Source: Aliiroseovarius sp. S1339
Lineage (GTDB): Bacteria > Pseudomonadota > Alphaproteobacteria > Rhodobacterales > Rhodobacteraceae
Direction of reading: 5' to 3'
Assembly (NCBI RefSeq): GCF_023195695.1
Contig: NZ_JALPQG010000007.1
Span: 186,001-250,000 of the forward strand
Length of the DNA: 64,000 bases
Positions 13,584 through 36,115 of the stretch are shown piece after piece. The notes beneath the pieces are model-generated. The model had not been told where the DNA came from. It worked only from the letters and a program-made list of their open reading frames with translations, and made no database searches. The stretch's first letter is position 1. Each line of letters begins with the position of its first letter. The position numbers were made by a program, and so were the translations under genes.

Positions 13584-14138
13584 TCATTTCCGTCGTTTAT
13601 GTTCGTCTAATCGCGGAAAAATTTCGACGAAGTTGCATGGCATGTGGCGGTAGTCCAACTGGTGAACCAAAATGTCGTCCCATGCGTCCTTGCACGCACC
13701 GGGGCTGCCGGGCAGGGCAAACAGATATGTACCGTTGGCCACGCCGCCCGTGGCGCGGCTTTGCACAGCCGAGGTGCCGATTTTGTTCATCGAAATAATG
13801 GTGAACACGGTCGCGAACGCCTCGATTTCCTTTTCATAGACATCGCGATGCGCCTCGACAGAGACATCGCGCCCCGTCAGCCCGGTGCCGCCGGTGGATA
13901 TGACCACGTCAATGTCGGGGTCCAGCGACCAGGCGCGCAGTTGATCCGCGATGTCGCCGCGTTCATCGCGGACAATCATTCGGTCGGCAAGAATGTGGCC
14001 CGCGTCCTCCAGCCGGGCGACCAAAGTGTCGCCGGATCGGTCCTCGTCCAGCTTGCGCGAGTCAGAGACCGTCAGCACGGCGATACGCACCGGAATGAAA
14101 TCACGGGTGGCGGCGGCGTCGGGCGTGATGTGGGACAT
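13584..14138 (-). CDS. moaB: Molybdenum cofactor biosynthesis protein MoaB
   Basis: MoaB/MogA-type proteins adenylylate or bind molybdopterin during molybdenum cofactor assembly. The 184-residue protein has the MoCF-binding motif STGGTGLTGRD at about 82-92 and the C-terminal LPGSPGACKDAWDDIL signature. It lies 9 bases after the phosphoesterase gene, so it may be the last gene of the uracil-DNA glycosylase-phosphoesterase-moaB unit. No other moa gene is near. Confidence 0.92.
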   Translation of the reverse strand: MSHITPDAAATRDFIPVRIAVLTVSDSRKLDEDRSGDTLVARLEDAGHILADRMIVRDERGDIADQLRAWSLDPDIDVVISTGGTGLTGRDVSVEAHRDVYEKEIEAFATVFTIISMNKIGTSAVQSRATGGVANGTYLFALPGSPGACKDAWDDILVHQLDYRHMPCNFVEIFPRLDEHKRRK

Positions 14139-22745: not shown

Positions 22746-22807
22746 GGTTGCCAAAACCCCGATCAACCTAGCCTCACGATCAGATTGCAAAAAAGTATCT
22801 CGCAAAA

Positions 22808-22837
22808 TGATCCGATATACACAGCGCCGCGTATTGA
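22808..22837 (+). promoter_or_regulatory. Probable RpoE-type promoter of rpoE-chrR
   Basis: TGATCC at 22808-22813, 18 bases, then TATTGA at 22832-22837. Transcription would start near 22845, about 70 bases before the rpoE start codon. The -35 sequence and spacing are the same as at two other sites in this cluster. It would make the sigma factor autoregulated, as known for Rhodobacter RpoE. Confidence 0.72.
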
Positions 22838-22916
22838 GGTTATGTTGACACTGAACCTTGATCCCCCGCCCCTCCGGCCACCCATGCCCTGTGTGCGTCG
22901 TCATGAAGGAAAACCG

Positions 22917-23474
22917 GTGTTGCAAAAGAAAACCGAGATTTCGGAGCAGACTGTCTGGATGCTCGCTGTTCGGGATAATCGTGATCGAGACGCATTTTGC
23001 GCGCTGTTTGATCATTTCGCGCCGCGCCTGAAAGGTTTCATCATGCGGACCGGGTGTTCTGCCGCGCAGGCGGAAGAGATTGTTCAGGACGTCATGCTAA
23101 CGGTGTGGCGCAAGGCGGCGATGTTTGACCCGCACCGCGCGCAGGTGTCGGCGTGGATCTATCAGATCGCCCGCAATCGCCACATTGATGTTGTGCGCAA
23201 GGAAAACCGCCCGGTGCCGGACGAACTGGCAGAAGATCCCGGATCGGAACCTGACGCCAGCCAGATACTGGCGATCGAACAGGAAGCTGGCGAGTTGAAG
23301 AAAGCTTTGTCGTCGCTCAAACCCGAGCAACGCGAAATAATCGAGAAGGCCTATCTGGGCGAGCTGACACATCAAGAAATCAGCGACCAGACCGGCCTGC
23401 CACTTGGAACAATAAAATCCCGTATCCGACTTGGTCTGGAACGGTTGAGACATGAACTAAAGGGAATGCGATAA
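22917..23474 (+). CDS. rpoE: ECF sigma factor RpoE (singlet-oxygen response)
   Basis: A 185-residue ECF sigma factor. Region 2 spans ALFDHFAPRLKGFIMRTG to WIYQIARNRHIDVVRKENRP, with EEIVQDVMLTVWRKA as the core-binding and -10 part. Region 4 is LKPEQREIIEKAYLGELTHQEISDQTGLPLGTIKSRIRLGLERLR. The start is taken as GTG 22917, with AAGGA six bases upstream; the longer ATG form would have an unnatural Pro-rich leader that runs over the promoter. It overlaps chrR by one base. The pair matches the RpoE-ChrR system of Rhodobacter, in which singlet oxygen releases the sigma factor. Confidence 0.93.
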   Translation: MLQKKTEISEQTVWMLAVRDNRDRDAFCALFDHFAPRLKGFIMRTGCSAAQAEEIVQDVMLTVWRKAAMFDPHRAQVSAWIYQIARNRHIDVVRKENRPVPDELAEDPGSEPDASQILAIEQEAGELKKALSSLKPEQREIIEKAYLGELTHQEISDQTGLPLGTIKSRIRLGLERLRHELKGMR

Positions 23475-24109
23475 TGTCCGCAATTACCCATCATATACCG
23501 GATGCAATTCTGGCGGCATACACCTCGGGCAGCCTTCCGCACCATTATGCAGTCGCGGTGGCCAGCCATGTGTCGCTGTGTCTGCAATGTCGCGCATCGC
23601 TGGAAGCCCATCAAAATATGGGTGGCGCGCTGTTGGATGCGACAGACCGTGTGGCCGTGTCCGGTCACATGAAGGCCGATTTGCTCGCGCAACTGGATGC
23701 GCCGGTGACGCCAGAGCCAGTCTATACGCGTCAGGGCATCTATCCACGTCCCGTGGTCGAGGCCCTGAAAGGCCAAGATCCACGCTGGAAATCCGTAGGT
23801 ATGGGGGTTCGCCAGTCGATCCTTTCGGAAACGAAGGAAGGATCGGTTCGGTTGCTTTATATTCCCCCCGGTCAGGCCGTTCCCGATCACGGGCATAACG
23901 GGATGGAGATGACTTTGGTGCTTCAGGGCAGCTTCAGCGATGAGACCGGCCATTTCGGTGTCGGTGACATCGAGATTGCTAATGAAGACCTGGATCACAC
24001 CCCCACCGCGGACCCCGGCGAGGCCTGCATTTGCCTTGCCGCGACTGACGCACCGTTGCGGTTCAATGCACTGATGCCGCGCCTTTTGCAGCCGTTCTTT
24101 CGAATTTAG
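23474..24109 (+). CDS. chrR: Zinc-binding anti-sigma factor ChrR
   Basis: A 211-residue ChrR-type anti-sigma factor. The N-terminal anti-sigma domain has the zinc site His6 or His7, with His32-x3-Cys36-x2-Cys39. The C-terminal cupin domain keeps its own metal ligands: His139, His141, Glu145 (DHGHNGMEMT) and His175 (DLDHTP). Both zinc sites correspond position for position to those of Rhodobacter ChrR. The protein should hold RpoE inactive until singlet oxygen or organic peroxide is present. It shares TAATG with rpoE, so the pair is translationally coupled and probably made in fixed ratio. Confidence 0.95.
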   Translation: MSAITHHIPDAILAAYTSGSLPHHYAVAVASHVSLCLQCRASLEAHQNMGGALLDATDRVAVSGHMKADLLAQLDAPVTPEPVYTRQGIYPRPVVEALKGQDPRWKSVGMGVRQSILSETKEGSVRLLYIPPGQAVPDHGHNGMEMTLVLQGSFSDETGHFGVGDIEIANEDLDHTPTADPGEACICLAATDAPLRFNALMPRLLQPFFRI

Positions 24110-24229: not shown

Positions 24230-24259
24230 TGAACCACCTGCCGAACCCGTCCGTATTCC
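24230..24259 (+). promoter_or_regulatory. Possible RpoE-like promoter of the fasciclin gene
   Basis: TGAACC at 24230-24235, 18 bases, then TATTCC at 24254-24259, about 55 bases before the start codon. It differs by one base in the -35 box from the three stronger sites of the cluster. The one mismatch keeps this tentative; other ECF sigma factors also favour an AAC core. Confidence 0.4.
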
Positions 24260-24315: not shown

Positions 24316-24831
24316 ATGAAAAATACTTTCAAAACCGCCGCTGCCGCACTCGCTTTGACTATCGCTGCGAACACCGCCCATGCTGACAATATTGTCGAGA
24401 TTGCCGCCGCGGACGAGCGTTTCTCGACCCTCGTGGCAGCCGTTGGTGCTGCGGGTCTGGCCGAAACCCTGTCCGGCCCCGGCCCCTTCACAGTGTATGC
24501 CCCCGTGAATGATGCCTTTGCCGCCCTTCCTGAAGGTACGGTTGAGACATTGCTGAAGCCCGAAAACAAAGGTCAGTTGACTGACGTGTTGTTGTATCAC
24601 GTCGATGATCGGAAACTGACTGCCGGCATGATCCCGCAGGGCTCGAACTATTTCAAACCAGTGCTGACCAGTGCACGTCTGTGCATCACGGCTGGTGCTG
24701 ATGGTGTGAAGATCGCGGACGGCACGGGCGAAATGGCGAATGTCATCATTGCCGACATTATGGCCGATAATGGCGTGATTCATGTGGTCGACAAAGTGCT
24801 GTTGCCCGGCGCGCGCCCTGCTTGCCACTAA
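24316..24831 (+). CDS. Secreted fasciclin (FAS1) domain protein
   Basis: A 171-residue protein with a clear signal peptide (KNTFKTAAAALALTIAANTAHA, cut before Asp-Asn) and one FAS1 domain. The H1 motif is GPGPFTVYAPVNDAFAALP, the H2 motif is NGVIHVVDKVLLP, and the central YH pair is LLYHVDD. FAS1 proteins are extracellular or periplasmic adhesion-type modules with no known enzymatic role. A single gene with AGGAG before the ATG and its own terminator. Its place between chrR and the lipid genes, and the promoter-like site upstream, suggest it belongs to the same stress response. Confidence 0.93.
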   Translation: MKNTFKTAAAALALTIAANTAHADNIVEIAAADERFSTLVAAVGAAGLAETLSGPGPFTVYAPVNDAFAALPEGTVETLLKPENKGQLTDVLLYHVDDRKLTAGMIPQGSNYFKPVLTSARLCITAGADGVKIADGTGEMANVIIADIMADNGVIHVVDKVLLPGARPACH

Positions 24832-24941: not shown

Positions 24942-25667
24942 TTATTTACCGCGATAGACAAGCAGGTCCGGCAGGTATTCCAACAGTCGCATCGCCCACG
25001 AAAAGGGTGCGGGGAAGTCGGTGCGAAAGCGGGTTTTACGCATCGCTTTCAGCACATGTTTGGCAGCGTCCTCGGGCGACATCAACATTGGCATCTTGAA
25101 CGCGTTCTTCTGGGTCAGGCGGGTTTTGATGAAGCCCGGATTGACGATCCGAACCACAACGCCCGTGTCTTTCAGGTCAAACCGCATGGTTTCGGCCAAG
25201 CTGACGATGGCGGCTTTGCTTGCGCTGTAACCGATCGACGCCGGAAGGCCGCGATAGCCCGCAAGTGATCCGATCAGGGTGATGTCACCGCGTCCATTTT
25301 TGGTTAACGCAGGCACGACTTCGCCCATGACATGCATCGCGCCGATGAAATTGACGTTGCACATCATCATAGCTGATTTGCTGTCCCATTCGGTGGCACG
25401 CATCGGATCATAAGCGCCTGCGATATAGACGATCCCGTCAACCTCGCCAACTTTTTCGACCGCGTCGCGCACCATATCTGGGTCGGTCACGTCGATGGTC
25501 ACGACGCGGGCATCTGTCAGTTCGTCCGCAAGACTTTGCAAGCGTTCCTCGCTGCGCGCAGACACGACCAACTTGGCGCCCTCTTTGTCCAGATCATGGG
25601 CCAAGGCACGGCCCAGACCTTCGCTGGCCCCGATCAGCCAATATGTTCTGCCGGAAAACTCAATCAT
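24942..25667 (-). CDS. Short-chain dehydrogenase/reductase in the RpoE cluster
   Basis: A 241-residue classical SDR. The cofactor motif is GASEGLGRAL (about 13-22). The active site is Ser in LIGSLAGYRG and the YSASKAA motif (Tyr-x3-Lys), and NPGFIKT follows. It is the second gene of a minus-strand pair and overlaps DUF1365 by four bases. An SDR at this position is a regular member of rpoE-chrR/cyclopropane-synthase clusters in proteobacteria. A role in modified-fatty-acid metabolism is inferred from context only. Confidence 0.88.
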   Translation of the reverse strand: MIEFSGRTYWLIGASEGLGRALAHDLDKEGAKLVVSARSEERLQSLADELTDARVVTIDVTDPDMVRDAVEKVGEVDGIVYIAGAYDPMRATEWDSKSAMMMCNVNFIGAMHVMGEVVPALTKNGRGDITLIGSLAGYRGLPASIGYSASKAAIVSLAETMRFDLKDTGVVVRIVNPGFIKTRLTQKNAFKMPMLMSPEDAAKHVLKAMRKTRFRTDFPAPFSWAMRLLEYLPDLLVYRGK

Positions 25668-26437
25668 TGCTCTGTTCCCTGATAGGTCTTGCTGTCAGAC
25701 ACCAATGGCTCGGGCGGGGCAGGCTTTCGCAGGAACGGCGCGCGCTTGAAATACAGGATCAATGCCTGCCAATAGATCAGAAATACGACGCGTAACGCCC
25801 CGAACGGACGGCGAAGCGCGGCCCATGCAAGCGATGCGTTGGTGGCGGGCCTGCGGTCGCCAGCCAGCGTTGCCAGCACACCTTCATCCCCGTTTTCATA
25901 AAGGATGCGAATGTCGAACTGATCATCGGTCATTCCAAAGTTGAAGCGGTATTGCCCTTCGACCTTCTGGAAGGGGGACACATGCATCATCTTTTCGGCA
26001 ATGATCGCGTCGCGCTTTTCGATTGGGCTAAAATCCTCATGCGCGCAAAAATAGCAATGGCGGTGCCCAAATGTGTTGTTCACCTCGGCAATAAAAGCGC
26101 GCGGCGTGCCGTCTTTGGTGGCAATCCAAAAGCTGATCGGGTTGAAGTGAAACCCAAGAAAACTAGGTTGCGTCAGCAAGGTCAGGTCATGGTCCTTGGT
26201 ATCTAAGCCGCGCTGTTCGAGCTCGTCACTGAACCAATCAAGACCCTGCCCATCACCGCGCGGGCCACCATGATGCTTGTCCCAAAGCGACCAAAGGTTA
26301 AATCGGTTGCGGGACAGAAGGGCGGGGTTGGTTTCGCTGGACAGGTCGCATAGCACGTAATCTACGCCATAGGTGAAGGCGTTTTTCAACTTGCCGCGGC
26401 GGGCATGCAGCGTGTGGGCTTGGATATGTTCGACCAT
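25664..26437 (-). CDS. DUF1365 family protein of the RpoE cluster
   Basis: A 257-residue DUF1365 protein, with the typical opening MVEHIQAHTLHARRGKLKNAFTYGVDYVLCDL and then LLTQPSFLGFHFNPISFWIA, PRAFIAEVNNTFGHRHCY and KMMHVSPFQ. The family nearly always sits beside a FAD oxidase and a cyclopropane-fatty-acid-synthase-like gene, as here. Its biochemical role is not settled to my knowledge. ATG 26437 matches the family start. A promoter-like site ends only 7 bases before it, so the mRNA is predicted to be leaderless or nearly so. Confidence 0.9.
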   Translation of the reverse strand: MVEHIQAHTLHARRGKLKNAFTYGVDYVLCDLSSETNPALLSRNRFNLWSLWDKHHGGPRGDGQGLDWFSDELEQRGLDTKDHDLTLLTQPSFLGFHFNPISFWIATKDGTPRAFIAEVNNTFGHRHCYFCAHEDFSPIEKRDAIIAEKMMHVSPFQKVEGQYRFNFGMTDDQFDIRILYENGDEGVLATLAGDRRPATNASLAWAALRRPFGALRVVFLIYWQALILYFKRAPFLRKPAPPEPLVSDSKTYQGTEQ

Positions 26438-26444: not shown

Positions 26445-26474
26445 CTATTACGCATGAAACATGTGTTTGGATCA
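26445..26474 (-). promoter_or_regulatory. Probable RpoE-type promoter of the DUF1365-SDR operon
   Basis: On the minus strand TGATCC (26474-26469), 18 bases, then TAATAG (26450-26445). Only GGGCAAG separates the -10 box from the ATG at 26437, so transcription should start at or beside the start codon. Confidence 0.72.
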
Positions 26475-26548: not shown

Positions 26549-26578
26549 TGATCCAAGCGGGTCAGGCAGCCGTAATCT
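26549..26578 (+). promoter_or_regulatory. Probable RpoE-type promoter of the FAD oxidase/methylase operon
   Basis: TGATCC at 26549-26554, 18 bases, then TAATCT at 26573-26578. The start codon of the first gene is 30 bases further on, after a good AAGGATGAGG ribosome-binding site. Back to back with the minus-strand site at 26445-26474. Confidence 0.75.
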
Positions 26579-26607: not shown

Positions 26608-27939
26608 ATGCTCGACCAACAGCGTGGCCCGCGTAGAAAGATTGCGATTGTCGGAGGTGGTATTTCCGGCCTGTCCGCAGCGTATTATCTGTCGCCAAAC
26701 CATGACGTCACGATTTACGAAGCTGCACCGCGTCTGGGCGGCCATGCACGCACAGTTATGGCTGGCAAGAATGGCGACCAGCCGGTGGATACCGGGTTTA
26801 TCGTATTCAACTACGTGACCTACCCTTATCTAACGCGCCTTTTTCGCGAACTGGACGTGCCTGTCACCAAAAGCGAGATGAGCTTCGGGGCTAGCATCGA
26901 CAACGGTTGGCTGGAATATGGTTTAAGCAATCTGAAATGCATCACCGCCCAACGGCGAAATCTGTTGCGTCCGCAGTTTTATAAGATGATCGCGGACATC
27001 GTCCGCTTTGGAAAACGTGCCGAGGAGGCTGCGAAGGACAACGACAAGACCATCGGTGAATTGGTGGACGAGCTTGGCCTTGGTCAGTGGTTTCGCAACA
27101 ACTATCTTATGCCGATGTGTGGCGCGATCTGGTCAACGCCGGTGGACGATGTCGATCAGTTTCCGGCCAAATCCCTTGTTCAGTTTTTCCGCAACCACGC
27201 GCTATTGGCCGGTTTGGGCGAACACCAGTGGTGGACCGTCAAGGGCGGCAGCGTTGAGTATGTGAAACGGCTTGAGGCGGCTCTGCGCGCGCGGGGCGTC
27301 GACATTTGCCTTGGCGCGCCGGTGACCCGGGTCGAACGCATGTCATATGGCGTCACGGTTCAGACCGCCACGGGCGCGGACAAGGGTTATGACGACATCA
27401 TTCTGGCCTGCCACTCCAATCAGGCGCTGGCCATGTTGGGTGACAATGCAACCGAGCTTGAGGCCAGTGCGCTTGGCCGCATTCGTTATCAGCCTAACAA
27501 GGCCGTGCTGCATTGCGACCCCGGCCAGATGCCAAAGCGAAAGGCCGCTTGGTCCAGCTGGGCCTATCGCTCGCAGGATGGTGATATTGGCGTCACCTAT
27601 TGGATGAACAAGCTGCAGAATATCCCCGAAAGCGACCCGCTATTCGTAACATTGAACCCGTCCGCCCCTATCCCAGCGGACAAGATCTATGATCAGGTCG
27701 AGTTCGCCCACCCTGTATTTGATAAGCCCGCGTTGCAGGCTCAGCAGGAATTGCGCGCCATGCAGGGGATGAACCGGACGTGGTTTGCCGGTGCCTATCA
27801 CCGCCATGGTTTCCACGAAGACGGCATCGCCAGCGCGATGCGTATTGTGCGGATGATCAACAAAGATGCTCCATCGAAAGGATCCGAAATTGCGTTTGAC
27901 GAACAAAGCTCTGAAGTCGAAATTCCTGTCCACCTGTGA
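26608..27939 (+). CDS. FAD-dependent oxidase/desaturase-like protein of the RpoE cluster
   Basis: A 443-residue flavoprotein of the amine-oxidase/phytoene-desaturase superfamily. The Rossmann FAD motif IAIVGGGISGLSAAYYL is at about 12-28, followed by YEAAPRLGGHARTV. The C-terminal TWFAGAYHRHGFHEDGIASAM completes the FAD site. ATG 26608 was chosen because of AAGGATGAGG upstream and the position of the FAD fold; the longer form from 26461 would include the promoter. In Rhodobacter the homologue beside rpoE (RSP_1090 as I recall) is needed for a sustained singlet-oxygen response. The furan-fatty-acid pathway predicts a desaturase and an oxygenase in such clusters; I cannot say which this is. Confidence 0.88.
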   Translation: MLDQQRGPRRKIAIVGGGISGLSAAYYLSPNHDVTIYEAAPRLGGHARTVMAGKNGDQPVDTGFIVFNYVTYPYLTRLFRELDVPVTKSEMSFGASIDNGWLEYGLSNLKCITAQRRNLLRPQFYKMIADIVRFGKRAEEAAKDNDKTIGELVDELGLGQWFRNNYLMPMCGAIWSTPVDDVDQFPAKSLVQFFRNHALLAGLGEHQWWTVKGGSVEYVKRLEAALRARGVDICLGAPVTRVERMSYGVTVQTATGADKGYDDIILACHSNQALAMLGDNATELEASALGRIRYQPNKAVLHCDPGQMPKRKAAWSSWAYRSQDGDIGVTYWMNKLQNIPESDPLFVTLNPSAPIPADKIYDQVEFAHPVFDKPALQAQQELRAMQGMNRTWFAGAYHRHGFHEDGIASAMRIVRMINKDAPSKGSEIAFDEQSSEVEIPVHL

Positions 27940-29053
27940 ACGGTTGCGCGACGGGCAATTGACCCTGCGCACCCCGGAAGGCGACAGTTATCAGTTCGGC
28001 ACGTCCGGCCCTGAAGCCGAGATGGTGATCCGCGATTGGGCCGCCGTGTCTGCGATGGCCGCGCATGGGCAGGTCGGGCTGGGCGAAACCTATGTGCAAG
28101 GCATGTGGGACACATCGTCGATCGAAACGCTGATGTCGGTCGCCATGCGCAACCGCGACCACCTTGGCAGTTACGATCAGGCGAGCGTTTTGAACCGTGC
28201 AAAATTCCGGCTTGTCGACACCATGCTGCGCGCGAATTCCCGCCGTGGGTCGCGCAAGAACATCCGCTCGCATTATGACGTCGGCAACGAGTTTTATCAG
28301 CTGTGGCTGGATGAGGGCATGACCTATTCATCTGGTATTTTTGCTGACGGCAGTGATGACCTGACCGACGCACAGACCCGCAAGAACGCGCGCGCGCTGT
28401 CCCGGCTTGGGGCGGGCGAACGCGTGCTGGAAATCGGCTGCGGTTGGGGCGGATTTGCCGAACATGCTACCCATGTCGGTCGTGATGTGACGGGCGTGAC
28501 AATCTCGCGCAACCAACACTCCTACGCGGAATGCCGTTTGGATGGGCGCGCCGATATTCAACTGCGCGACTATCGCGACATCAACGGAAAATACGACAAC
28601 ATCGTCTCGATCGAGATGATCGAGGCCGTGGGCGCGCGCTATTGGCCCAGTTATTTCTCGGTTCTGAAGGACAATCTTGCAGAAGGCGGGCGGGTGTTGC
28701 TTCAGGCGATCACCGTCAAGGACAGCTTCTTTGAGACCTACAAAACCTCGTCCGATTATATCCGGCAGTATGTGTTTCCCGGCGGGATGCTTCTGTCTGA
28801 AAGTGTGATTGACGACCAAGCGCGCAAGGCAGGGTTGCAGGTGCAGGACAGTTTTGCCTTCGGTCAGGACTATGCCAAAACCTGCCGCATCTGGGCCGAA
28901 CGCTTTACCGCTAAAAAGCGCAAGATTGCCGAGATGGGTTATGGCGAAGCGTTCCAGCGCAATTGGCAATACTACCTTGAGATTTGTGCCGCGTCCTTTG
29001 CCGTCGGCCACACAAACGTTGTTCAGGTGGAGCTGGCTCATGCTCATGCTTAG
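27866..29053 (+). CDS. Cyclopropane-fatty-acid-synthase-like SAM methylase (UfaM-like)
   Basis: A 395-residue member of the cyclopropane fatty acid synthase family. It has the N-terminal accessory part, the conserved RSHYDVGNEFYQLWLDEGMTYSSGIF, SAM motif I VLEIGCGWGGFAEHA (about 190-204), SIEMIEAVG, and the C-terminal QDYAKTCRIWAERF. It acts on unsaturated acyl chains of phospholipids at the inner membrane. Beside rpoE-chrR the likely job is the UfaM-type methylation that starts furan fatty acid synthesis rather than plain cyclopropanation. The ATG start overlaps the FAD gene by 74 bases; TTG 27890, with AAAGGA upstream, is an alternative. Confidence 0.88.
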   Translation: MLHRKDPKLRLTNKALKSKFLSTCERLRDGQLTLRTPEGDSYQFGTSGPEAEMVIRDWAAVSAMAAHGQVGLGETYVQGMWDTSSIETLMSVAMRNRDHLGSYDQASVLNRAKFRLVDTMLRANSRRGSRKNIRSHYDVGNEFYQLWLDEGMTYSSGIFADGSDDLTDAQTRKNARALSRLGAGERVLEIGCGWGGFAEHATHVGRDVTGVTISRNQHSYAECRLDGRADIQLRDYRDINGKYDNIVSIEMIEAVGARYWPSYFSVLKDNLAEGGRVLLQAITVKDSFFETYKTSSDYIRQYVFPGGMLLSESVIDDQARKAGLQVQDSFAFGQDYAKTCRIWAERFTAKKRKIAEMGYGEAFQRNWQYYLEICAASFAVGHTNVVQVELAHAHA

Positions 29054-29549
29054 AACCCTGCTGACCTTGATCTTGCTGGCGGGAACGCCGGCGCCTGCAC
29101 TGGCGCAAAGCAACGTTGCCGCTGTGGCGCTTCCGGGGGCTGAGGTGCGCGGCACCGCGACGCTGCGCTTTCTGGGGTTGCCGCTGTATCAGGCGCGGCT
29201 TTTCACTGTTGGCGCGGCGGCGTTGGACTGGAACAAGGATTTTGGGATCGAGCTGACGTATCTGCGCAACTTGTCACAATATGATCTGGTTGAGGCCACG
29301 ATGCGTGAATTCAAACGCACCGGCGGCGCGCTGCCGTTAGAGGGTCAGTTGAACAAGTGTTTTGACGCGGTCAACAAAGGAGACCGCTATCTGGCCGTAT
29401 CAAACGGCGTGGATAAGGTCGGCTTTTGGCGTAACGGCCAACGCACCTGCACACTGTCACATCCACAGATCAAAAGCCGTTTTATGGGTATTTTCGTGGG
29501 CGACAACACGCGTTCGAAATCCTTCACGCGAAAGCTGATTGGATCCTAA
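29040..29549 (+). CDS. Secreted chalcone-isomerase-like protein
   Basis: A 169-residue protein with a signal peptide (MLMLRTLLTLILLAGTPAPALA) and a body resembling bacterial chalcone-isomerase-like proteins: VRGTATLRFLGLPLYQARLFT, IELTYLRNLSQYDLVEATMREF, and GIFVGDNTRSKSFTRKLIG. Plant relatives of this fold include fatty-acid-binding proteins, so handling of a modified acyl chain in the periplasm is a reasonable guess. The start at 29040 overlaps the methylase gene by 14 bases, with GGTGGAG upstream. Confidence 0.82.
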   Translation: MLMLRTLLTLILLAGTPAPALAQSNVAAVALPGAEVRGTATLRFLGLPLYQARLFTVGAAALDWNKDFGIELTYLRNLSQYDLVEATMREFKRTGGALPLEGQLNKCFDAVNKGDRYLAVSNGVDKVGFWRNGQRTCTLSHPQIKSRFMGIFVGDNTRSKSFTRKLIGS

Positions 29550-29550
29550 G

Positions 29551-30777
29551 ATGGTCTATCCGCGCGTCAGCCTGTATGCCCTGATGCTGGCCGCGGCTGG
29601 TATCCCGCTATATATCCATCTGCCGCGCTTTGCCTCGGTTAATCTTGGGATTGGTCTTGGCGCGATTGGGGCGATATTGTTGGTCATTCGTCTTGTTGAT
29701 CTGGTGCAAGACCCCCTGCTGGGCTGGGCCATTGATCGTTGGCCCAAAGCTCAAGCCCTGTTTGCAATGCTGGCCGCCGCCGGGTTGGCCATCGGCTTTC
29801 CGATTTTATTCGCGTTGCAGCCGGGTGGTTCCGTCACCTTTAGGCTGATCGCAGTGCTGGTGCTTTTATTTTCGGCCTATAGCCTTGGCATGATCCTTCT
29901 TTATGGGCGCAGCGCGACGCTTGCGAAGTCAACGGATGAACACGATCTGATGACGCTGGCCGCCTTTCGTGAAAGCGGCATGTTGGCGGGGGTGGTGATT
30001 GCGGCCATTGCGCCAGCAGTGTTCTTGGGGCTGGGAGCAAGTGGGCAGGGCTATCCTGCTTTCGGGTTATTTCTGGGCGCGCTTGCGATCGCGGTCGCCG
30101 TGATGAGCTTTCCGATCTGGCGTCGCACGCCGATCTTGGGCGAGGGCTTGACCTTTTCGGGTTTGGCCGGGGCTGGAGCGCTGCGCCTCTTGGTTTTGGC
30201 ATTGGTCAATAGTTTGCCCGTTGCGGTGACGTCCACGTTGTTTCTGTTCTTCGTCGAAGACCGCCTGCAACTTCCCGGCAAAGCTGGCCCCCTACTGATC
30301 CTGTTCTTCTTGTGCGCGGGGTTAAGCGTCCCGCTTTGGACGCGCCTCAGCCGGCTTGTTGGAACCAAGATGACGCTCGTGATCTCTATGCCGCTGGCGA
30401 TCCTTGGCTTTGTGGGGGCAGCCTTCCTTGCGCCCGGAAGCCTTGTTGGCTTTGCGATCATTTGCGTGGCCTCGGGTGCGGCTTTGGGGGCCGATATGGT
30501 GGTTCTGCCGGCGATGTTTTCAGTCGTGTTGACGAAGGCAGGGCTAAGCGCGTCAACGGCCTTTGGCATCTGGTCCTTCGCGGGCAAGTTGGGGTTGGCG
30601 CTTGCGGCGTTTGCCGTCTTGCCGCTGCTGGAACGCAACGGCTTTCAGCCCGGCCAAATCAACAGTGATGGCGCTTTGAACACGTTGAACATCGCCTATG
30701 CCGTCGTGCCCTGCATCCTGAAACTCTGCGCCTTCGGCCTTGTACTGGCGCTTCCTACTGAGGAGAGATACGAATGA
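29551..30777 (+). CDS. MFS transporter (GPH/MelB-like) of the RpoE cluster
   Basis: A 408-residue integral membrane protein with about twelve hydrophobic helices. It is related to the sugar/cation symporter (MelB-like) branch of the major facilitator superfamily: LVIRLVDLVQDPLLGWAIDRW after TM2 and RLSRLVGTKMTLVISMPLAILG between the halves. It begins one base after the previous stop and overlaps the DUF3833 gene by four bases. Cargo is unknown; a lipid or lipid-derived compound would fit the operon. A MelB-like carrier in the Rhodobacter rpoE neighbourhood supports the assignment. Confidence 0.85.
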   Translation: MVYPRVSLYALMLAAAGIPLYIHLPRFASVNLGIGLGAIGAILLVIRLVDLVQDPLLGWAIDRWPKAQALFAMLAAAGLAIGFPILFALQPGGSVTFRLIAVLVLLFSAYSLGMILLYGRSATLAKSTDEHDLMTLAAFRESGMLAGVVIAAIAPAVFLGLGASGQGYPAFGLFLGALAIAVAVMSFPIWRRTPILGEGLTFSGLAGAGALRLLVLALVNSLPVAVTSTLFLFFVEDRLQLPGKAGPLLILFFLCAGLSVPLWTRLSRLVGTKMTLVISMPLAILGFVGAAFLAPGSLVGFAIICVASGAALGADMVVLPAMFSVVLTKAGLSASTAFGIWSFAGKLGLALAAFAVLPLLERNGFQPGQINSDGALNTLNIAYAVVPCILKLCAFGLVLALPTEERYE

Positions 30778-31334
30778 AACTCCTGACCGCGCTTTTGCTA
30801 CTGATCTTGGCCGCAACATTCGCCAAGACAGTGCTATTAAGTTTCCGCGCCCAAAGCCCGGATGATTATGCAGACACCGGCCCCGCTTTCTCGTTGAAAC
30901 AGCACCTGTCAGGCACATTCGCCTCGGAAGGGCTGATCTATGGTCCCAAGGGAAAGCTGACCAACAGTTTCGTGGCCGAAATGGTGGGCGAATGGGATGG
31001 CGATACCGGCACGCTGACGGAGAAATTCACCTACTCCAACGGGCGCGAGCAGAACCGGAAATGGTTTTTGAAACTGGGCGAGGGCAACACATTCACCGCC
31101 ACCGCTGACGACATTGTGGGCGAGGCGCAGGGCGTCGTGTCAGGCTCGACCGTGTCGATGCGCTACCAGATTGTTTTGCCGCCAGAAGCAGGCGGCCATA
31201 CCCTGACCGCGACCGATTGGCTGTACCTGACACAAGACGGTGTCATCATGAACAAGTCGGAAATGCGCAAGTTTGGACTGAAGGTGGCTGAGTTGATCGC
31301 CACCATGCGCCCAGTGCCGGGCGTACAGCCTTAA
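30774..31334 (+). CDS. DUF3833 family protein
   Basis: A 186-residue protein with one N-terminal hydrophobic segment (signal or anchor, about 3-22) and the DUF3833 pattern: FSLKQHLSGTFASEGLIYGPKGKLTNSFVAEMVGEWDG, LTEKFTYSNGREQNRKWFLK, GEAQGVVSGSTVSMRYQIVLP, and WLYLTQDGVIMNKSEMRKFGLKVAE. The repeated beta strands suggest a lipocalin-like barrel. It is a regular member of clusters with chrR, a FAD oxidase and DUF1365. Its function is unknown; a periplasmic lipid-binding role is inferred. Confidence 0.85.
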   Translation: MKLLTALLLLILAATFAKTVLLSFRAQSPDDYADTGPAFSLKQHLSGTFASEGLIYGPKGKLTNSFVAEMVGEWDGDTGTLTEKFTYSNGREQNRKWFLKLGEGNTFTATADDIVGEAQGVVSGSTVSMRYQIVLPPEAGGHTLTATDWLYLTQDGVIMNKSEMRKFGLKVAELIATMRPVPGVQP

Positions 31335-31373
31335 CCCCAACCCCACCACCCGAATATCGAACAAGAGAGTATT

Positions 31374-32090
31374 ATGTCACGCCCCGCACCCCTTCTGGCC
31401 ATAGCCATTCTGGTCCTGTCGATTGTCTTCATGCTGTCGCCGCTGTTCAGCAGTAATTTCGCCGGCTATTCACCCGACCAGTTTCCCACCAAAGAAACCT
31501 TCTGGCCGGTGCAGCCCGCGGGGTGGGCGTTTAGCATTTGGGGTCTGATCTATGTCTGGCTGATTGTCGGCGCGGCTTGGGGGCTTTTGAAAGCACCAAA
31601 CGACGCCGATTGGCAACGCATGCGCGGCCCCTTGATGATCAGTCTGGCGTTGGGCTGCTTCTGGATCGCGGCGGCGAATGCCTCGCCCATTTGGGCAACC
31701 GTGATCATCGTCGTGATGGCTGTGACGGCGATCCTTGCGATGTTGCGCGCGGGGCCGCAAGACCCTTGGTGGCAACTTCGCCCCGTCGCCCTTTACGCTG
31801 GATGGCTGACGGCTGCGACCGGCGTGGGTGCGGGTGTTGTCTTGGGCGGGTATGAGGTTCTGTCACCGCAGGTCGCCGCACTGGTTATGCTGGTGATCGT
31901 GCTGATCGTTGCGCTTTATGTGCAATCGTTGCGTCGCGGGGCGTGGTCCTATCCCCTCGCCATCATCTGGGCGCTGTTCGGGGTCATTGCGGCCAACTGG
32001 CCTGCGCAAAACTGGGCTGTCATTGGCGTTGCGGTTGTGGGCATTGTGCTGCTGGGCGCGCGCGCCGTCTCAGGTCTGCGCACAATTTAA
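31374..32090 (+). CDS. TspO/MBR-related tryptophan-rich membrane protein
   Basis: A 238-residue protein with seven or eight hydrophobic helices and the opening of the tryptophan-rich sensory protein group: TFWPVQPAGWAFSIWGLIYVWLIVG. It is longer than classical TspO (about 160 residues) and lacks its later helices' signature, so it is a relative rather than an orthologue. TspO-type proteins respond to porphyrins and oxidative stress, which fits a singlet-oxygen cluster. It follows DUF3833 by 39 bases and is probably the last gene of the operon. Confidence 0.8.
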   Translation: MSRPAPLLAIAILVLSIVFMLSPLFSSNFAGYSPDQFPTKETFWPVQPAGWAFSIWGLIYVWLIVGAAWGLLKAPNDADWQRMRGPLMISLALGCFWIAAANASPIWATVIIVVMAVTAILAMLRAGPQDPWWQLRPVALYAGWLTAATGVGAGVVLGGYEVLSPQVAALVMLVIVLIVALYVQSLRRGAWSYPLAIIWALFGVIAANWPAQNWAVIGVAVVGIVLLGARAVSGLRTI

Positions 32091-32098: not shown

Positions 32099-32557
32099 TC
32101 AAACCGGAATGTTTGAGTATTTCTTGATATCGCGCAGCACCACATTGGTCTGCGCGCTTTCCACCGCTTTCAGTTTGAACAGAAAGCCTTCAAGGAAAGC
32201 ATTGAAACCCGACAGGTTGTGGCACAACACACGCAGGTGGTAATCCGCCTGACCGGTTGTTGCGAAACATTCGACCACGTCCGGACGGCGGTTCACGGCC
32301 TGAATAAACTCCTCGACTTTTTCGGGATCATGGCGGGTCAGTTGCACGTGCACGATGGCCTGAAAGCTTAGTCCGGCCTTCGCCGGGTTCACGATCGCTC
32401 CGTAACGTTCGATTATCTGCGCCTCTTCCAACGCACGCACCTTGCGCCAACAGGCCGAGGTCGACATCCCGACCGCATCGGCGAGGTCGGCATTGGAAAT
32501 TGTGCTATCCTTTTGCAGCAATTCGAGAATACGGCGGTCTTTTTCGTCAAGCTTCAT
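32099..32557 (-). CDS. Lrp/AsnC-family transcriptional regulator
   Basis: A 152-residue Lrp/AsnC regulator with an N-terminal winged helix-turn-helix (ILELLQKDSTISNADLADAVGMSTSACWRKVRALEEAQII) and a C-terminal RAM/ACT-like effector domain (FIQAVNRRPDVVECFATTGQADYHLRVL). It diverges from the indolepyruvate oxidoreductase gene across 129 bases and is the obvious candidate to control it in response to an amino acid. It ends 8 bases from the TspO-like gene, tail to tail. Confidence 0.92.
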   Translation of the reverse strand: MKLDEKDRRILELLQKDSTISNADLADAVGMSTSACWRKVRALEEAQIIERYGAIVNPAKAGLSFQAIVHVQLTRHDPEKVEEFIQAVNRRPDVVECFATTGQADYHLRVLCHNLSGFNAFLEGFLFKLKAVESAQTNVVLRDIKKYSNIPV

Positions 32558-32686
32558 GGGTGGAGTTTCCAGAATTCAAGGCATTCGCGGTATGTCCTGC
32601 CAAATATCGTAATTCACTCGGTCAATAAAGGTATGAACCACCAGCCCTGATGGAATACCATGGAAAAGATGCCAGGAGGGCCCGCC

Positions 32687-35600
32687 ATGTCACGCCAAGA
32701 CACCGCATTTTCAACCTATCAATTGTCAGACCGCTATGCCCGCCCGTCCGGCCGCGTTTTCCTGACCGGAACACAGGCGCTGGTGCGCATCATGCTGGAT
32801 CAGGCGCGGCGGGATCAGAAGGTCGGGCTGAACACCGCAGGCTTCGTTTCGGGCTATCGCGGATCGCCGCTTGGCGCGTTGGATCTTGAGTTGTGGCGCG
32901 AGAAGAAACGCGTGGCGGATAACAACATCACCTTCCTACCCGCCGTCAATGAAGACCTTGGCGCGACCGCTGTTCTGGGCGCGCAACAAGCCAGTCTGGA
33001 CCCGGACTGCGAGGTCGAGGGCGTCTTTTCCATGTGGTACGGCAAAGGGCCGGGGGTTGATCGGTCTGGCGACGCGTTGAAACACGGCAACGCCTATGGC
33101 TCGGCCCCCAAAGGTGGCGTTCTGGTGGTTGCGGGCGATGACCACGGCTGCGTCTCCTCCTCGATGCCGCATCAATCGGATGTGGCGTTCATGGCGTGGT
33201 TCATGCCCACGCTGAACCCGGCGTCTGTGGGGGAATATCTGGCGTTTGGCGAATACGGCTTTGCATTGTCGCGGTTCAGCGGCACATGGGTCGGGTTCAA
33301 GGCCATTTCGGAAACAGTCGAATCCGGCCAGTCGGTGGAATTGACCCCCGACCGCGAATTCTCGTTTCCAGCCATCGACCTGCCGCCCGGCGGATTGCAT
33401 GTGCGACAGGCCGACCTGCCCAGCCCCGAGATTGAGACGCGCATTGGCCATAAACTTGACGCCGTGCGCGCCTTTGTCGAAGCCAATCCGATTGACGAAC
33501 CCATATACGACATTGCTGACGCGAAGTTCGGGTTTGTCACCACCGGCAAGGGCCATCTGGACTTGCTAGAGGCACTGCGCCTTCTGGGCGTGGACGAAGC
33601 AAAATGCCACGCGTTGGGCATCGATATTTACAAGGTCGGTATGGTTTGGCCGCTTGCCCGCCGGGATGCGTTGCGCTTTGTACGCGGCAAGGCCGAAGTG
33701 CTGGTGGTCGAAGAAAAACGGGGCATCATCGAAAGCCAGTTCAAGGAATACTTCTATGACTGGCCGGGCGACAAACCCAACCGCATGGTGGGCAAATATG
33801 ACAGCCAAGGTGAGCCCTTGATCCCTTGGACAGGAGAGCTTAGCCCGCTGATGCTGGTTCCCATCGTGGCCGCGCGGCTGGATCAGGTTTTTCCATGCGA
33901 AAACTTCACCACGAAAGCCGCAGCACTGTTGCAACAGCCGCCCTGTGTGCTGAAAACTGAAGGTGCGTCGCGCACGCCCTATTTCTGTTCCGGCTGTCCG
34001 CACAACACGTCAACCAAGCTGCCCGATGGCAGTTCTGCCGCTTCCGGTATTGGTTGTCATGTGATGGCCAGCTGGATGAACCGCAACACGGTCGGCTATG
34101 CCCAGATGGGCGGCGAGGGCGTGCCTTGGGTCGCCACCTCCAAGTTCAACGGTGGCAAGCATATCTTCCAAAACCTTGGGGAAGGTACGTGGTATCACTC
34201 CGGCTCCCTCGCGATCCGGCAGGCCATCGCTGCGGGCACCAATATCACCTATAAAATCCTTTATAATGATGCGGTTGCGATGACCGGCGGGCAGCCCGTG
34301 GATGGTCCGATCAGTGTCGCGGGTATCGTGCAGACTTGTCGCGCCGAGGGGGTCGAGCGGATCGCGCTGTTGTCCGACGACATCAGCAAATTCTCGCATT
34401 CAGATTTCCCAAAGGGCACGACTTTCCACGACCGATCCGAGCTTGATCAGGTACAGCGCGAATTGCGCGACATTTCCGGCGTCACAGTGCTGGTCTATGA
34501 ACAAACCTGCGCCACGGAAAAACGCCGCCGCCGCAAACGCGGCACGATGGCGGACCAGAAAACCGTCCCGTATATCAACCCGCTGGTTTGTGAGGGCTGC
34601 GGCGACTGCTCGGTCGAGAGCAATTGTCTAAGCGTCGAACCGCTGGACACCGAGTTCGGGCGCAAGCGGAAGATTAACCAGTCCAACTGCAATAAGGACA
34701 TGTCCTGCCTGAATGGGTTTTGTCCCAGCTTCGTCACGATCGAAGGTGCGACCCGTCGCAAGCGTGATCCTTTGAAGCTTGATGTGGCGGCAATACTTCA
34801 GGATGTTGCGTCGCCCAAGCTGCCAAACATCTCGAACCCGTTTGACCTGTTGGTGACGGGTGTGGGCGGAACTGGTGTGGTGACAGTTGGTGCGTTGATC
34901 ACGATGGCTGCCCATCTGGAAGGCAAGGGGTCAAGCGTGCTGGACTTCACTGGCTTTGCCCAGAAGTTCGGCACGGTTCTTAGTTATATCCGATTGGGTG
35001 ACTCGCCCAAAGCTGTGCATCAAGTGCGCATCGACAAAGGGTCGGCGGATGCGGTGATCGGCTGCGATATGGTTGTATCTTCTTCGCCCAAAGCGTCGGT
35101 GCATTACCAGCCCGGCACCAAAGTCGTTTTGAACCGAGCCGAGATGCCGACGGGCGATCTTGTCCTGTCGCGCGATGCAAGTCTGCAAATTGACGTGCGC
35201 GAAGCTGCGGTCAAGACGGCGGTCGGGGCGGAAAACGTTGCAGGATTCGACGCGAACCATGCCGCAGAAACCCTTTTAGGCGATACCGTGTATGCCAATG
35301 TCATCATGCTGGGCTATGCGTGGCAAATGGGTCTTGTGCCGGTGTCGGAGGTCGCGCTGAAACAGGCGATCCAACTGAACGCCGTGAAGGTGCCGGAAAA
35401 CACGCGCGCCTTCGATCTTGGCCGTGTTCTGGCCGCCGCACCCGATCGCGTGGCGTTGGATGATCCGAAACCATCAGCGGATCAAAAACCGGCGGATCTG
35501 ATTGAGGCGCGTGCGGCTTTCCTGACGGACTACCAGAACGCGGCCTATGCTGACCGCTATCGACTGACCCTTGCGAATTTTGCGGCACAGTTGCCGGATG

Positions 35601-36115
35601 GATTGCGGGCCGATTTGCTTTCTGCTGCGGCAAAAAGCCTGTTCAAACTTATGTCCTATAAAGACGAATACGAGGTGGCGCGGCTGCACACGCAAATGGG
35701 GTTCGCCGACCAGTTGAAGCAGGAATTTGAGGAAGGGTATTCAGTGAAATACCACTTTGCGCCGCCCCTTTTGCCGCTGGGCAAGGATGCACGCGGACGT
35801 CCGCGTAAACGTGCCTTCGGGCCGTGGATGCGCCCGGTCTTAACGGGGTTGGCCCGACTGAAGTCCTTGCGTGGCACCATGTTTGACCCGTTTGGCTATA
35901 CAGCAGAACGCCGCGAGGAAGTGGAGTTGATTGCATGGTATGAAAACGGATTGCGGACGATGTCGGGCCGGGTCAGTGAACACAACGCAGATGATGTGCG
36001 TGAGTTCCTGTCTGCCCCGCTTGAGATGCGCGGATACGGCCGGGTTAAGCGGGCGTCGGTGGCTGAGGTCAAGCCGCAAGCTGACGCAGCGCTGAACCGC
36101 ATGTTGTCTGCCTAG
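32687..36115 (+). CDS. Indolepyruvate:ferredoxin oxidoreductase, fused alpha-gamma subunits
   Basis: This 1142-residue enzyme oxidatively decarboxylates aryl or branched 2-oxo acids to acyl-CoA with reduction of ferredoxin. In order: an N-terminal pyrimidine-binding domain (GFVSGYRGSPLGALD), a TPP domain with the CSGCPHNTST and GIGCHVMASWM motifs (about 440-480), a ferredoxin-like cysteine cluster (CEGCGDCSVESNCLSV, SNCNKDMSCLNGFCP), and a C-terminal gamma-type domain (LLVTGVGGTGVVTVGALI). The fusion is the usual proteobacterial form. ATG 32687 was chosen for AGGAGG nine bases upstream. It is probably regulated by the divergent Lrp-type gene. Confidence 0.93.
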   Translation: MSRQDTAFSTYQLSDRYARPSGRVFLTGTQALVRIMLDQARRDQKVGLNTAGFVSGYRGSPLGALDLELWREKKRVADNNITFLPAVNEDLGATAVLGAQQASLDPDCEVEGVFSMWYGKGPGVDRSGDALKHGNAYGSAPKGGVLVVAGDDHGCVSSSMPHQSDVAFMAWFMPTLNPASVGEYLAFGEYGFALSRFSGTWVGFKAISETVESGQSVELTPDREFSFPAIDLPPGGLHVRQADLPSPEIETRIGHKLDAVRAFVEANPIDEPIYDIADAKFGFVTTGKGHLDLLEALRLLGVDEAKCHALGIDIYKVGMVWPLARRDALRFVRGKAEVLVVEEKRGIIESQFKEYFYDWPGDKPNRMVGKYDSQGEPLIPWTGELSPLMLVPIVAARLDQVFPCENFTTKAAALLQQPPCVLKTEGASRTPYFCSGCPHNTSTKLPDGSSAASGIGCHVMASWMNRNTVGYAQMGGEGVPWVATSKFNGGKHIFQNLGEGTWYHSGSLAIRQAIAAGTNITYKILYNDAVAMTGGQPVDGPISVAGIVQTCRAEGVERIALLSDDISKFSHSDFPKGTTFHDRSELDQVQRELRDISGVTVLVYEQTCATEKRRRRKRGTMADQKTVPYINPLVCEGCGDCSVESNCLSVEPLDTEFGRKRKINQSNCNKDMSCLNGFCPSFVTIEGATRRKRDPLKLDVAAILQDVASPKLPNISNPFDLLVTGVGGTGVVTVGALITMAAHLEGKGSSVLDFTGFAQKFGTVLSYIRLGDSPKAVHQVRIDKGSADAVIGCDMVVSSSPKASVHYQPGTKVVLNRAEMPTGDLVLSRDASLQIDVREAAVKTAVGAENVAGFDANHAAETLLGDTVYANVIMLGYAWQMGLVPVSEVALKQAIQLNAVKVPENTRAFDLGRVLAAAPDRVALDDPKPSADQKPADLIEARAAFLTDYQNAAYADRYRLTLANFAAQLPDGLRADLLSAAAKSLFKLMSYKDEYEVARLHTQMGFADQLKQEFEEGYSVKYHFAPPLLPLGKDARGRPRKRAFGPWMRPVLTGLARLKSLRGTMFDPFGYTAERREEVELIAWYENGLRTMSGRVSEHNADDVREFLSAPLEMRGYGRVKRASVAEVKPQADAALNRMLSA

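Follow-up and report, generated by a model that had tools for sequence, protein, structure and literature searches.

Gene organisation and promoters

The 64,000-nucleotide stretch of the Aliiroseovarius sp. S1339 genome analysed here (contig NZ_JALPQG010000007.1, positions 186,001 to 250,000; hereafter the window) carries rpoE-chrR, a fasciclin-domain gene, genes for a short-chain dehydrogenase/reductase (SDR) and a DUF1365 protein on the reverse strand and then, divergently on the forward strand, genes for a flavin adenine dinucleotide (FAD) protein, a methylase, a chalcone isomerase (CHI)-like protein, a transporter of the major facilitator superfamily (MFS), a DUF3833 protein and a TspO-like protein (Table 1). 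Judged by its genes and promoters, the window holds an RpoE-ChrR (ECF11) furan-fatty-acid operon, the UfaD-type, UfaO-type and methylase genes lying beside rpoE-chrR with sigma-E promoters in front. An initial annotation correctly placed the four open reading frames (ORFs) behind the methylase and described them as unexplained passengers. For the CHI, MFS and DUF3833 genes that label was wrong, because alpha-, beta- and gammaproteobacteria carry them as a module of their RpoE-ChrR furan-fatty-acid operons.

Table 1. Genes and promoter sites of the furan-fatty-acid locus (positions count from the first nucleotide of the window; AF2, AlphaFold2)
Feature	Position	Strand	Basis and remarks
rpoE, extracytoplasmic function (ECF) sigma factor	22794..23474	+	NCBIfam sigma70-ECF, 92.8 bits; adjoins chrR; real start probably further inside the ORF
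ECF11/RpoE-type promoter consensus at rpoE	22808..22833	+	Exact TGATCC-N16-CGTA
chrR, anti-sigma factor with ChrR cupin domain	23474..24109	+	PF12973, 55 bits
SDR, RSP_1087-type	24942..25667	-	PF00106, 143 bits; frequent operon member in other loci
DUF1365, UfaO-type furan-forming protein	25664..26437	-	PF07103, 223 bits
ECF11 promoter consensus toward DUF1365-SDR, divergent	26449..26474	-	Exact match
ECF11 promoter consensus before UfaD-methylase-CHI-MFS-DUF3833	26549..26574	+	Exact match
FAD amine-oxidase-type protein, UfaD-type desaturase	26608..27939	+	PF01593, 93 bits
Fatty-acyl methylase, CMAS family, UfaM-type (UfaM and FufM not told apart)	27866..29053	+	PF02353, 255 bits
CHI-like protein with signal peptide, DUF3833-linked class	29040..29549	+	Chalcone_3, 25.1 bits; AF2 model; CHI fold; tree
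MFS_2/GPH-type transporter, RSP_1089 counterpart	29551..30777	+	PF13347, 121.4 bits (cut-off 27)
DUF3833 protein, RSP_1088 counterpart by length and order	30774..31334	+	PF12915, 179.4 bits (curated cut-off 25); AF2 model
TspO-like polytopic membrane protein, loosely associated	31374..32090	+	No Pfam match; hhalign to TspO

The coupling of the methylase, CHI, MFS and DUF3833 genes is tight. The methylase and CHI frames overlap by 14 nt (8 nt if CHI starts at its second in-frame ATG, 29046) and the MFS and DUF3833 frames by 4 nt (ATGA), whereas the CHI stop codon (TAA, 29547-29549) and the MFS ATG (29551) are 1 nt apart; an in-frame TTG at 29539 would give an overlap there. The overlapping starts previously ascribed to the first three genes are thus present at two junctions and, given the ATG start, absent from the third, and the arrangement suggests translation of the four genes as one unit. 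The exact ECF11 consensus, TGATCC-N16-CGTA, occurs three times in the window against 0.06 expected from shuffles. PADLOC gave no match for the CHI-like, MFS, DUF3833 and TspO-like proteins.

A described counterpart is RSP_1091-1087 of Rhodobacter sphaeroides, comprising UfaD (RSP_1091), UfaO, which carries DUF1365 (RSP_1090), a 'sugar/cation symporter, GPH family' (RSP_1089), a hypothetical protein (RSP_1088) and an SDR (RSP_1087) (PMC7074977, PMC7380195); elsewhere RSP_1091 is termed a flavin-containing oxidoreductase (PMC5507510). All five have positive values in a singlet-oxygen comparison table, which gives no R. capsulatus homologues for them (PMC7074977). The window shares with this operon the rpoE-chrR pair, UfaD, UfaO, a GPH symporter, a 186-aa protein, an SDR and a sigma-E promoter, but it adds an in-operon methylase and the CHI-like and TspO-like genes, and its DUF1365-SDR pair is inverted behind a divergent promoter; the R. 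sphaeroides operon has no CHI gene. RSP_1088, which is reported as 186 aa and 561 bp (PMC7380195), is equal in length to the window DUF3833 protein and gene; from this, the operon order and a homologue called 'lipoprotein' in PMC5507510 we infer that RSP_1088 is a DUF3833 protein. When the published R. sphaeroides gene lengths were compared with 45 loci carrying all four genes, no locus matched more than one length. RSP_1088 is placed in the predicted core regulon by PMC5507510, as cited there from an earlier study.

Co-occurrence with the furan-fatty-acid genes

The initial annotation had proposed that frequent occurrence without the FAD/methylase pair would speak against a link to the pathway; the CHI, MFS and DUF3833 genes withstood the comparison with furan-fatty-acid genes, which was made in 149 genomes of the window's family (Rhodobacteraceae) and in 398 Pseudomonadota genomes. 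In the family DUF3833 was found in 91 genomes, DUF1365 in 127 and both in 89 (p 7e-8), and in 76 of these 89 the distance from DUF1365 to a DUF3833 copy is no more than 10 kb. Across the phylum the corresponding numbers were 113, 153 and 107 (odds ratio 93, p 1.4e-51), the two lying within 10 kb in 59 of the 107, and DUF3833 without DUF1365 was rare (6/113). RSP_1089-1087 were taken in 2013 as confined to Rhodobacteraceae (PMC3818230), but DUF3833 and the MFS-DUF3833 pair are far more widespread.

Chalcone_3 matches in the phylum were divided into three classes at 57 and 100 Pfam bits, boundaries chosen after inspection of the data, and were counted in 128 of 129 genomes (one weak row was left out), excluding duplicate and fragment rows (e.g. 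G259, G161, G183). Members of the low-scoring class, to which the window protein belongs (58 genomes), lie within 5 kb of DUF3833 in 44 of the 48 genomes with both; ten genomes lack DUF3833 and four have it unlinked. In all 44 linked pairs CHI precedes DUF3833 on the same strand, at a distance of at most 200 nt in 36 and with a gap of 1-2 kb, the size of an MFS gene, in eight; 29 of the 44 are also within 10 kb of DUF1365. By comparison, linkage to DUF3833 was seen in one genome of the intermediate class (18 genomes) and in 0 of the 15 DUF3833-bearing genomes of the high-scoring class (63 genomes). In a tree of 81 CHI sequences, the 51 linked-class rows are split from the 30 high-scoring rows by a branch with 100/100 support, the CHI rows of the window's family forming one branch inside the linked class, to which a small number of CHI genes not in the furan operon also belong. 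For the family, the Pfam count of CHI (9/149 genomes) is too low, since maps built with hidden Markov models (HMMs) gave 14 CHI ORFs in 100 family loci and the window. The high-scoring proteins constitute a separate bacterial CHI-fold class, unlinked to DUF3833 in our sample, and include tandem pairs (G391:C17:2148-3271, G382:C122:964-2050 and G358:C133:3265-4350).

Gene order and an apparent slot for one membrane protein

The mapped loci were mostly picked for linkage, and 80 were retrieved with DUF3833 itself, so that counts of operon members describe patterns and not random samples; for loci without names, the terms gammaproteobacterial and beta follow from gene order shared with named records and with PMC10012899. 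Among the 80 loci found with the DUF3833 profile, mainly from Burkholderiales, the exact order UfaD-UfaO-UfaM-CHI-MFS-DUF3833-SDR occurs in 56; UfaO is present in 72, 70 of which also have UfaM, CHI, MFS and DUF3833. Azoarcus sp. KH32C (pAZKH) has the same seven genes as the window in one run (FAD-DUF1365-CFA-chalcone isomerase family-MFS-DUF3833-SDR) but, unlike the window, all on one strand and with a MerR gene adjoining; rpoE-chrR and a TspO-like gene are both missing from the 14 kb shown. Within the window's own family the commonest set of the 94 mapped loci is MFS and DUF3833 with neither methylase nor CHI (44/94), the full complement of methylase, CHI, MFS and DUF3833 being found in 11. 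UfaD, UfaO, UfaM, DUF3833 and MFS occur without CHI in six loci from other families of the window's class (L228, L230-L234) and in one locus of another class (L227).

Pseudomonadota loci of another class mostly read SDR-UfaD-UfaO-UfaM-DUF2878-CHI-DUF3833. In 32 broader operons with UfaO, an MFS gene is present in 13, DUF2878 in 14, neither in five and both in none; MFS and DUF2878 never occurring together points to an apparent slot for one membrane protein. The identity of DUF2878 is backed by Pfam in four loci, and in 12 of the 17 DUF2878 loci fetched the gene is flanked by UfaM and CHI-DUF3833, all on the same strand. Salinivibrio kushneri has phrB-NTF2-SDR-FAD-DUF1365-CFA-DUF2878-hypothetical-DUF3833, the hypothetical gene occupying the CHI position, and a cluster of Aeromonas salmonicida is given as NTF2-SDR-FAD-DUF1365-cfa-DUF2878 (PMC10012899); Vibrio VC1123 is likewise a DUF2878 protein (PMC12971978). 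These gammaproteobacterial cfa-DUF2878 clusters share the furan-acid genes of the window, but DUF2878 replaces its MFS transporter. A search of the plasmid collection for DUF2878 gave no match. An NTF2-like gene (nuclear transport factor 2 family) stands beside the SDR gene in the Azoarcus and Salinivibrio operons, as in Aeromonas (PMC10012899), and is not found in the window. A Blc-type lipocalin gene lies near some furan operons, beside UfaM in one locus (L225, by Pfam) and in 7 of the 72 beta loci (by HMM).

Predicted structures of the CHI-like and DUF3833 proteins

The CHI-like protein (169 aa) begins with what, by eye, is a typical signal peptide (...PAPALA-QS). Its Chalcone_3 (PF16036) score is below the curated cut-off of 27 bits, and a relative (L214) reaches 50.7 bits. 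The AF2 model (pLDDT 87) has the CHI fold: comparison with CHI, CHI-like (CHIL) proteins and the fatty-acid-binding proteins (FAPs) AtFAP1 and AtFAP3 gives Z 13.7-15.7 over 146-151 residues, the best match having Z 15.7 and a root-mean-square deviation of 2.5 over 149 aligned residues. The 29 rows of the match list down to Z 12.7 are all CHI, CHIL, FAP or yeast AIM proteins (Aim18p 13.7, Aim46p 12.7); they are followed by chains of the chloroplast FtsHi complex (11.7 and 10.6) and then by a value of 4.3. The model therefore bears out the earlier suggestion of a fold shared with plant fatty-acid binders, from which the window protein differs in being bacterial and predicted to be exported and in an identity of only 5-12%. 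Tyr50 and Tyr74 are conserved in 100% of the CHI alignment and Arg76 in 92%. Two cysteines, in LNKCFDAV and RTCTLSHP, are common to the family CHI rows and absent from the other rows of the alignment shown; they could possibly form a disulphide in the exported protein.

That DUF3833 is a small barrel had been guessed from its sequence and agrees with its AF2 model (pLDDT 91), a 10-stranded antiparallel calycin-type barrel preceded by a single hydrophobic segment at the N terminus. Among solved structures it most resembles a designed barrel (Z 15.8), BFA1 (15.2), the spirocyclase OssO (15.1), a DUF3598 protein (14.9) and nitrobindin (14.5), with OlmO (13.4) and fatty-acid-binding protein (FABP, up to 10.8) lower. 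With nitrobindin, FABP and OssO the model shares the 10-stranded barrel at 8-17% identity, but DUF3833 has no conserved His and is predicted to be a lipoprotein or membrane-anchored. As to lipocalins, DUF3833 has no lipocalin match in Pfam, and nitrophorins appear in the Foldseek list at E ~1e-3, other calycin barrels ranking higher. Against PDB sequences, the CHI and DUF3833 profiles gave weak matches only (best E 0.79 and 0.18, respectively). In a diverse DUF3833 alignment the conserved strand faces have a mean Kyte-Doolittle value of +0.73 and the variable faces one of -0.99, the conserved face being the more hydrophobic in eight of ten strands, with one reversed and one tied. Near-invariant E83, R95, Y131, D148, N160 and K166, together with W97, lie on the conserved faces, which presumably point inward.

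As modelled, both folds would suit acyl chains, but they are also those of haem binders and cyclases, and each resemblance supports a reading of its own. The CHI-fold and DUF3833 proteins could be enzymes acting after furan formation that isomerise, cyclise or clean up an oxidised furan chain; the SDR would reduce carbonyls and the MFS protein would import or export the product. CHI itself is a cyclase whose fold the CHI-like model has, OssO and OlmO are polyketide spirocyclases, and the six near-invariant polar residues of DUF3833 would be placed to take part; moreover, 71 of 72 beta loci and 89 of 94 family loci have an SDR gene close to UfaO, by an HMM that matches other SDRs too. Fold likeness does not show catalysis, however, and the fatty-acid profile reported for single deletions of the R. 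sphaeroides MFS, DUF3833 and SDR counterparts is unchanged (PMC7380195), so that we consider such an enzymatic role unlikely.

The haem binders suggest instead a handling of photosensitisers, in which DUF3833, the CHI-fold protein and the TspO-like protein would lower singlet-oxygen production by binding haem or porphyrins at the envelope. TspO proteins bind porphyrins, and nitrobindin is among the best DUF3833 matches. The yeast proteins Aim18p and Aim46p, to which the CHI-like model is similar, are reported to bind haem and not fatty acid (PMC9996372), and a ferrochelatase gene is part of a predicted Shewanella RpoE2 operon (PMC4336711). The CHI alignment, however, has no His, Cys or Met conserved above 60%, the kinship of the window gene with TspO is weak, and the co-occurrence comparison covered DUF1365 only. 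Nor is any His or Cys conserved above 60% beyond residue 30 in 38 diverse DUF3833 sequences, where a single Met (position 150, Leu in the window) exceeds this level; a counterpart of the proximal His of nitrobindin, which we take to be its haem ligand, is thus missing. We judge photosensitiser handling to be quite improbable.

The transporter and the TspO-like gene

The MFS protein matches the MFS_2/GPH symporter family far above its cut-off (Table 1). Residues R47, D50, D54, R140, E141 and K346 are kept in 145-155 of 155 aligned sequences, a pattern in line with a cation-coupled GPH carrier. D50 and D54 (Asp in 154/155 and 145/155) align with the helix II motif of MelB, where we take their counterparts to be the cation-site Asp residues; at the position aligned, weakly, with the helix IV Asp of MelB, presumably a sugar-binding residue, the window protein has no Asp. 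A profile of operon MFS proteins scored the lysolipid carrier MFSD2A at 146 bits and MelB at 96 (154 and 98 with an alphaproteobacteria-weighted set), a ranking that a control profile of other GPH proteins shares (see below).

The TspO-like gene does not belong to the conserved set in which the initial annotation had included it, and its description there as a long TspO relative holds only in the sense of a weak kinship. The protein has no Pfam match at E<1, including TspO/MBR (PF03073), and its profile no match in the PDB; hhalign to TspO gives a probability of 52.6% (E 1.4e-4, 109 columns). The window's own genome contains no PF03073 match. A TspO-like frame beside the operon MFS gene of a congener (G545) scores 22 bits against PF03073, for which the cut-off is 24. 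A relation to DUF2878 was considered and rejected (hhalign probability 0.15%).

TspO-like genes are present in 78 of the 149 family genomes, and in 10 of the 73 that also have DUF1365 the two are at most 10 kb apart (one of the ten, G096, is outside the maps). We give an even chance to the reading that the gene either has nothing to do with its neighbours or, in a minority of the family, takes the place of MFS-DUF3833. In favour of such a replacement, six mapped operons (L078-L083) hold a TspO-like gene without linked DUF3833, CHI or MFS, although the window and L085 carry both sets. Against a chance neighbour, ten genomes exceed the ~0.4 that we estimate for random placement (73 x 20 kb / 4 Mb), the gene follows DUF3833 by 39 nt in the window, and in G545 its counterpart adjoins the operon MFS gene. 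We treat the TspO-like protein as an optional, loose neighbour of the furan operon. In another locus (L084, G038:C18:146968-148311) an operon DUF3833 gene, a TspO-like fragment and a second DUF3833 gene stand in tandem, an arrangement suggestive of a TspO-like gene that has decayed between two copies of DUF3833.

A possible envelope role of the module

Neighbourhood and gene order, predicted folds, export signals and promoters lead us to a tentative reading, to which we assign somewhat less than an even chance, of CHI-MFS-DUF3833 as the envelope arm of the furan-fatty-acid response. The furan is built on phospholipid acyl chains by UfaM, UfaD and UfaO, as others have established. The MFS_2 protein, or DUF2878 in gammaproteobacterial operons, would then carry a molecule with an acyl chain through the inner membrane, candidate cargoes being a lysophospholipid or free fatty acid with a furan, or a chain oxidised after singlet-oxygen quenching. 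In the periplasm the acyl chain would be sheltered by the exported CHI-fold protein; the barrel of DUF3833, a predicted lipoprotein in most groups, would take over that chain or pass it on at a membrane.

For DUF3833, a lipobox pattern is present in 110 of 196 N-termini, with Asp at +2 in none, by a simple pattern test that sometimes picks an earlier Cys. Its presence in most groups sampled makes DUF3833 an envelope protein there, and by the Lol rule, under which a residue other than Asp at +2 points to the outer membrane, the lipobox-bearing proteins are indicated to be located there. A more specific proposal, which we find doubtful, is a three-compartment furan-lipid relay of MFS_2 or the interchangeable DUF2878, a periplasmic CHI-fold carrier and an outer-membrane-type DUF3833 lipoprotein, which would deliver furan chains to the outer membrane or clear spent ones and in this way guard that membrane against singlet oxygen. 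It would work like the Mla-type relay of an inner-membrane protein, a soluble periplasmic carrier and a lipoprotein; this is an analogy only, as general family scans of the window turned up no homology to Mla parts, though no search aimed at Mla was made.

Several lines of evidence weigh against an envelope role, most of all the genetics of R. sphaeroides. The single-gene deletions that the initial annotation had suggested are published for the MFS and DUF3833 counterparts: single deletions of RSP_1087, RSP_1088 and RSP_1089 in a ΔchrR background are reported to leave the fatty-acid profile without detectable change (Lemke et al. 2020, PMC7380195), and its statement that none of the genes is assigned a pathway step, correct in itself, was incomplete in this respect. 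In a 2013 study, moreover, RSP_1091 and RSP_1090 alone restored the singlet-oxygen resistance of a five-gene deletion (PMC3818230), so the MFS, DUF3833 and SDR counterparts are not needed in that plate assay. The DUF3833-type counterpart of P. syringae, called a lipoprotein, is described as lying at a separate locus without sigma-factor binding upstream (PMC5507510). DUF1365 without DUF3833 is common (46/153 phylum and 38/127 family genomes), which means that the furan genes do not need DUF3833. Among 72,556 plasmid records 138 carry DUF3833 relatives (95 from Klebsiella; 93 of the 138 typed conjugative), and in the one Klebsiella plasmid examined (NZ_CP113213.1, L368) the gene after DUF3833 is of the DUF523/DUF1722 type and furan genes are absent within 8 kb; some DUF3833 genes thus occur independently of the pathway. 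As for the transporter, a control profile of five other GPH proteins also ranked MFSD2A over MelB (146 vs 108), so that the ranking is not specific and a kinship with MFSD2A is no more than possible; single sequences disagree as well, the window protein finding only MelB (E 0.01), L243 only MFSD2A (2e-6) and L230 both, MFSD2A slightly ahead.

The location of DUF3833 in the window's family is a further difficulty. Its operon copies there, the window's included, have no lipobox, and most have an N-terminal membrane segment; five non-operon family copies, including the second copy in the window's genome, do have a lipobox. The flank before the segment is positive in 10 of 10 copies accompanied by CHI and neutral or negative in 54 of 57 without CHI (p 1e-9, kinship ignored, the family CHI genes forming one tree branch and entries with unclear starts being skipped). 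These charges suggest, as a guess, that the DUF3833 domain may be periplasmic where CHI is present and cytoplasmic where it is absent, yet the flank behind the segment is +2 in every one of the ten copies with CHI and positive in 43 of the 48 scorable copies without it, which leaves the orientation uncertain in either group. The earlier supposition that both proteins are exported thus fits CHI, and is less sure for DUF3833, which has a membrane segment in place of a lipobox and charges that suggest a cytoplasmic domain in most CHI-less cases. For alphaproteobacteria outside the family a cytoplasmic DUF3833 was considered and rejected, since upstream starts reveal lipoboxes in most. The second DUF3833 gene of the window's genome (L071, G000:C15:240366-240857), a lipoprotein by pattern, adjoins a KAS III-type gene and is not on the contig of DUF1365.

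On the plasmid NZ_CP113213.1, the DUF3833 and DUF523/DUF1722 genes sit among insertion sequences, a resistance integron and a lac operon. We presume that the YbgA protein of the Shewanella RpoE2 operon is of the DUF1722 type. The presence of YbgA in that operon is reported in PMC4336711.

A regulatory role, in which the accessory proteins would act as envelope sensors of furan lipids or of products derived from them and assist DegS/RseP in cleaving ChrR, is in our view very improbable. Homologues of DegS and RseP do take part in the activation by singlet oxygen (PMC3818230), and the sigma-E operon adjoins the regulators in most loci of the family (rpoE in 83/94, chrR in 85/94). Yet RSP_1091 and RSP_1090 restore the wild-type singlet-oxygen phenotype in the same study, and rpoE was within the searched stretch, which was short, in 8 of the 32 broader loci. 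The negative R. sphaeroides genetics limit every reading, and any effect of these genes must there be invisible in total fatty acids and in plate inhibition. In favour of the envelope reading, the unchanged total fatty acids of the deletions (PMC7380195) fit a role after synthesis. Overall, the proposal that the genes serve lipid handling or export in the envelope is partly supported for three of the four; it retains the conserved module, the predicted folds and the lipobox in its favour, and is weakened by dispensability in R. sphaeroides, the failed MFSD2A control and the TspO-like gene, for which we found no support.

Neighbouring genes

The fasciclin-domain gene (24316-24831, +) lies directly behind chrR, with a one-mismatch sigma-E-like site at 24230-24255 (+); such sites are common in the window (19 found, 9.5 expected). 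The R. sphaeroides fasciclin gene RSP_1409 is listed in the same singlet-oxygen table as RSP_1091-1087 (PMC7074977). A TGATC-N17-CGTA site at 13561-13586 (-) has no mismatch but reads TGATCT, off the strict consensus; it lies ~100 nt 5' of an HlyD-type membrane-fusion gene (11998-13458, -, by Pfam), which is followed by an RND-type pump gene (8668-11994, -, by eye). In P. syringae, ECF sigma binding sites include an AcrA/AcrB-type pump (PMC5507510), and the pump genes of the window are possibly a further sigma-E target. Beyond the operon's end are an AsnC/Lrp-type regulator gene (32099-32557, -) and a long indolepyruvate-oxidoreductase-like gene (32660-36115, +), both named by eye.

Implications

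Furan fatty acids are made on phospholipids, and the literature covered names no component by which they reach or leave the membranes that they protect; among the titles and abstracts found, none connects furan fatty acids with DUF3833 or with CHI-like proteins of bacteria, and three papers that mention DUF3833 bear titles on other subjects. A compact gene set found consistently next to the biosynthetic genes in three proteobacterial classes, with predicted folds that suit acyl chains, makes this transport question directly testable. The models also provide a first structural frame for DUF3833 and, with the gene maps, a genomic context for a bacterial CHI-fold class. Should the proposed relay prove true, CHI-fold proteins would have a role in bacterial lipid trafficking that resembles the fatty-acid binding of the plant FAPs.

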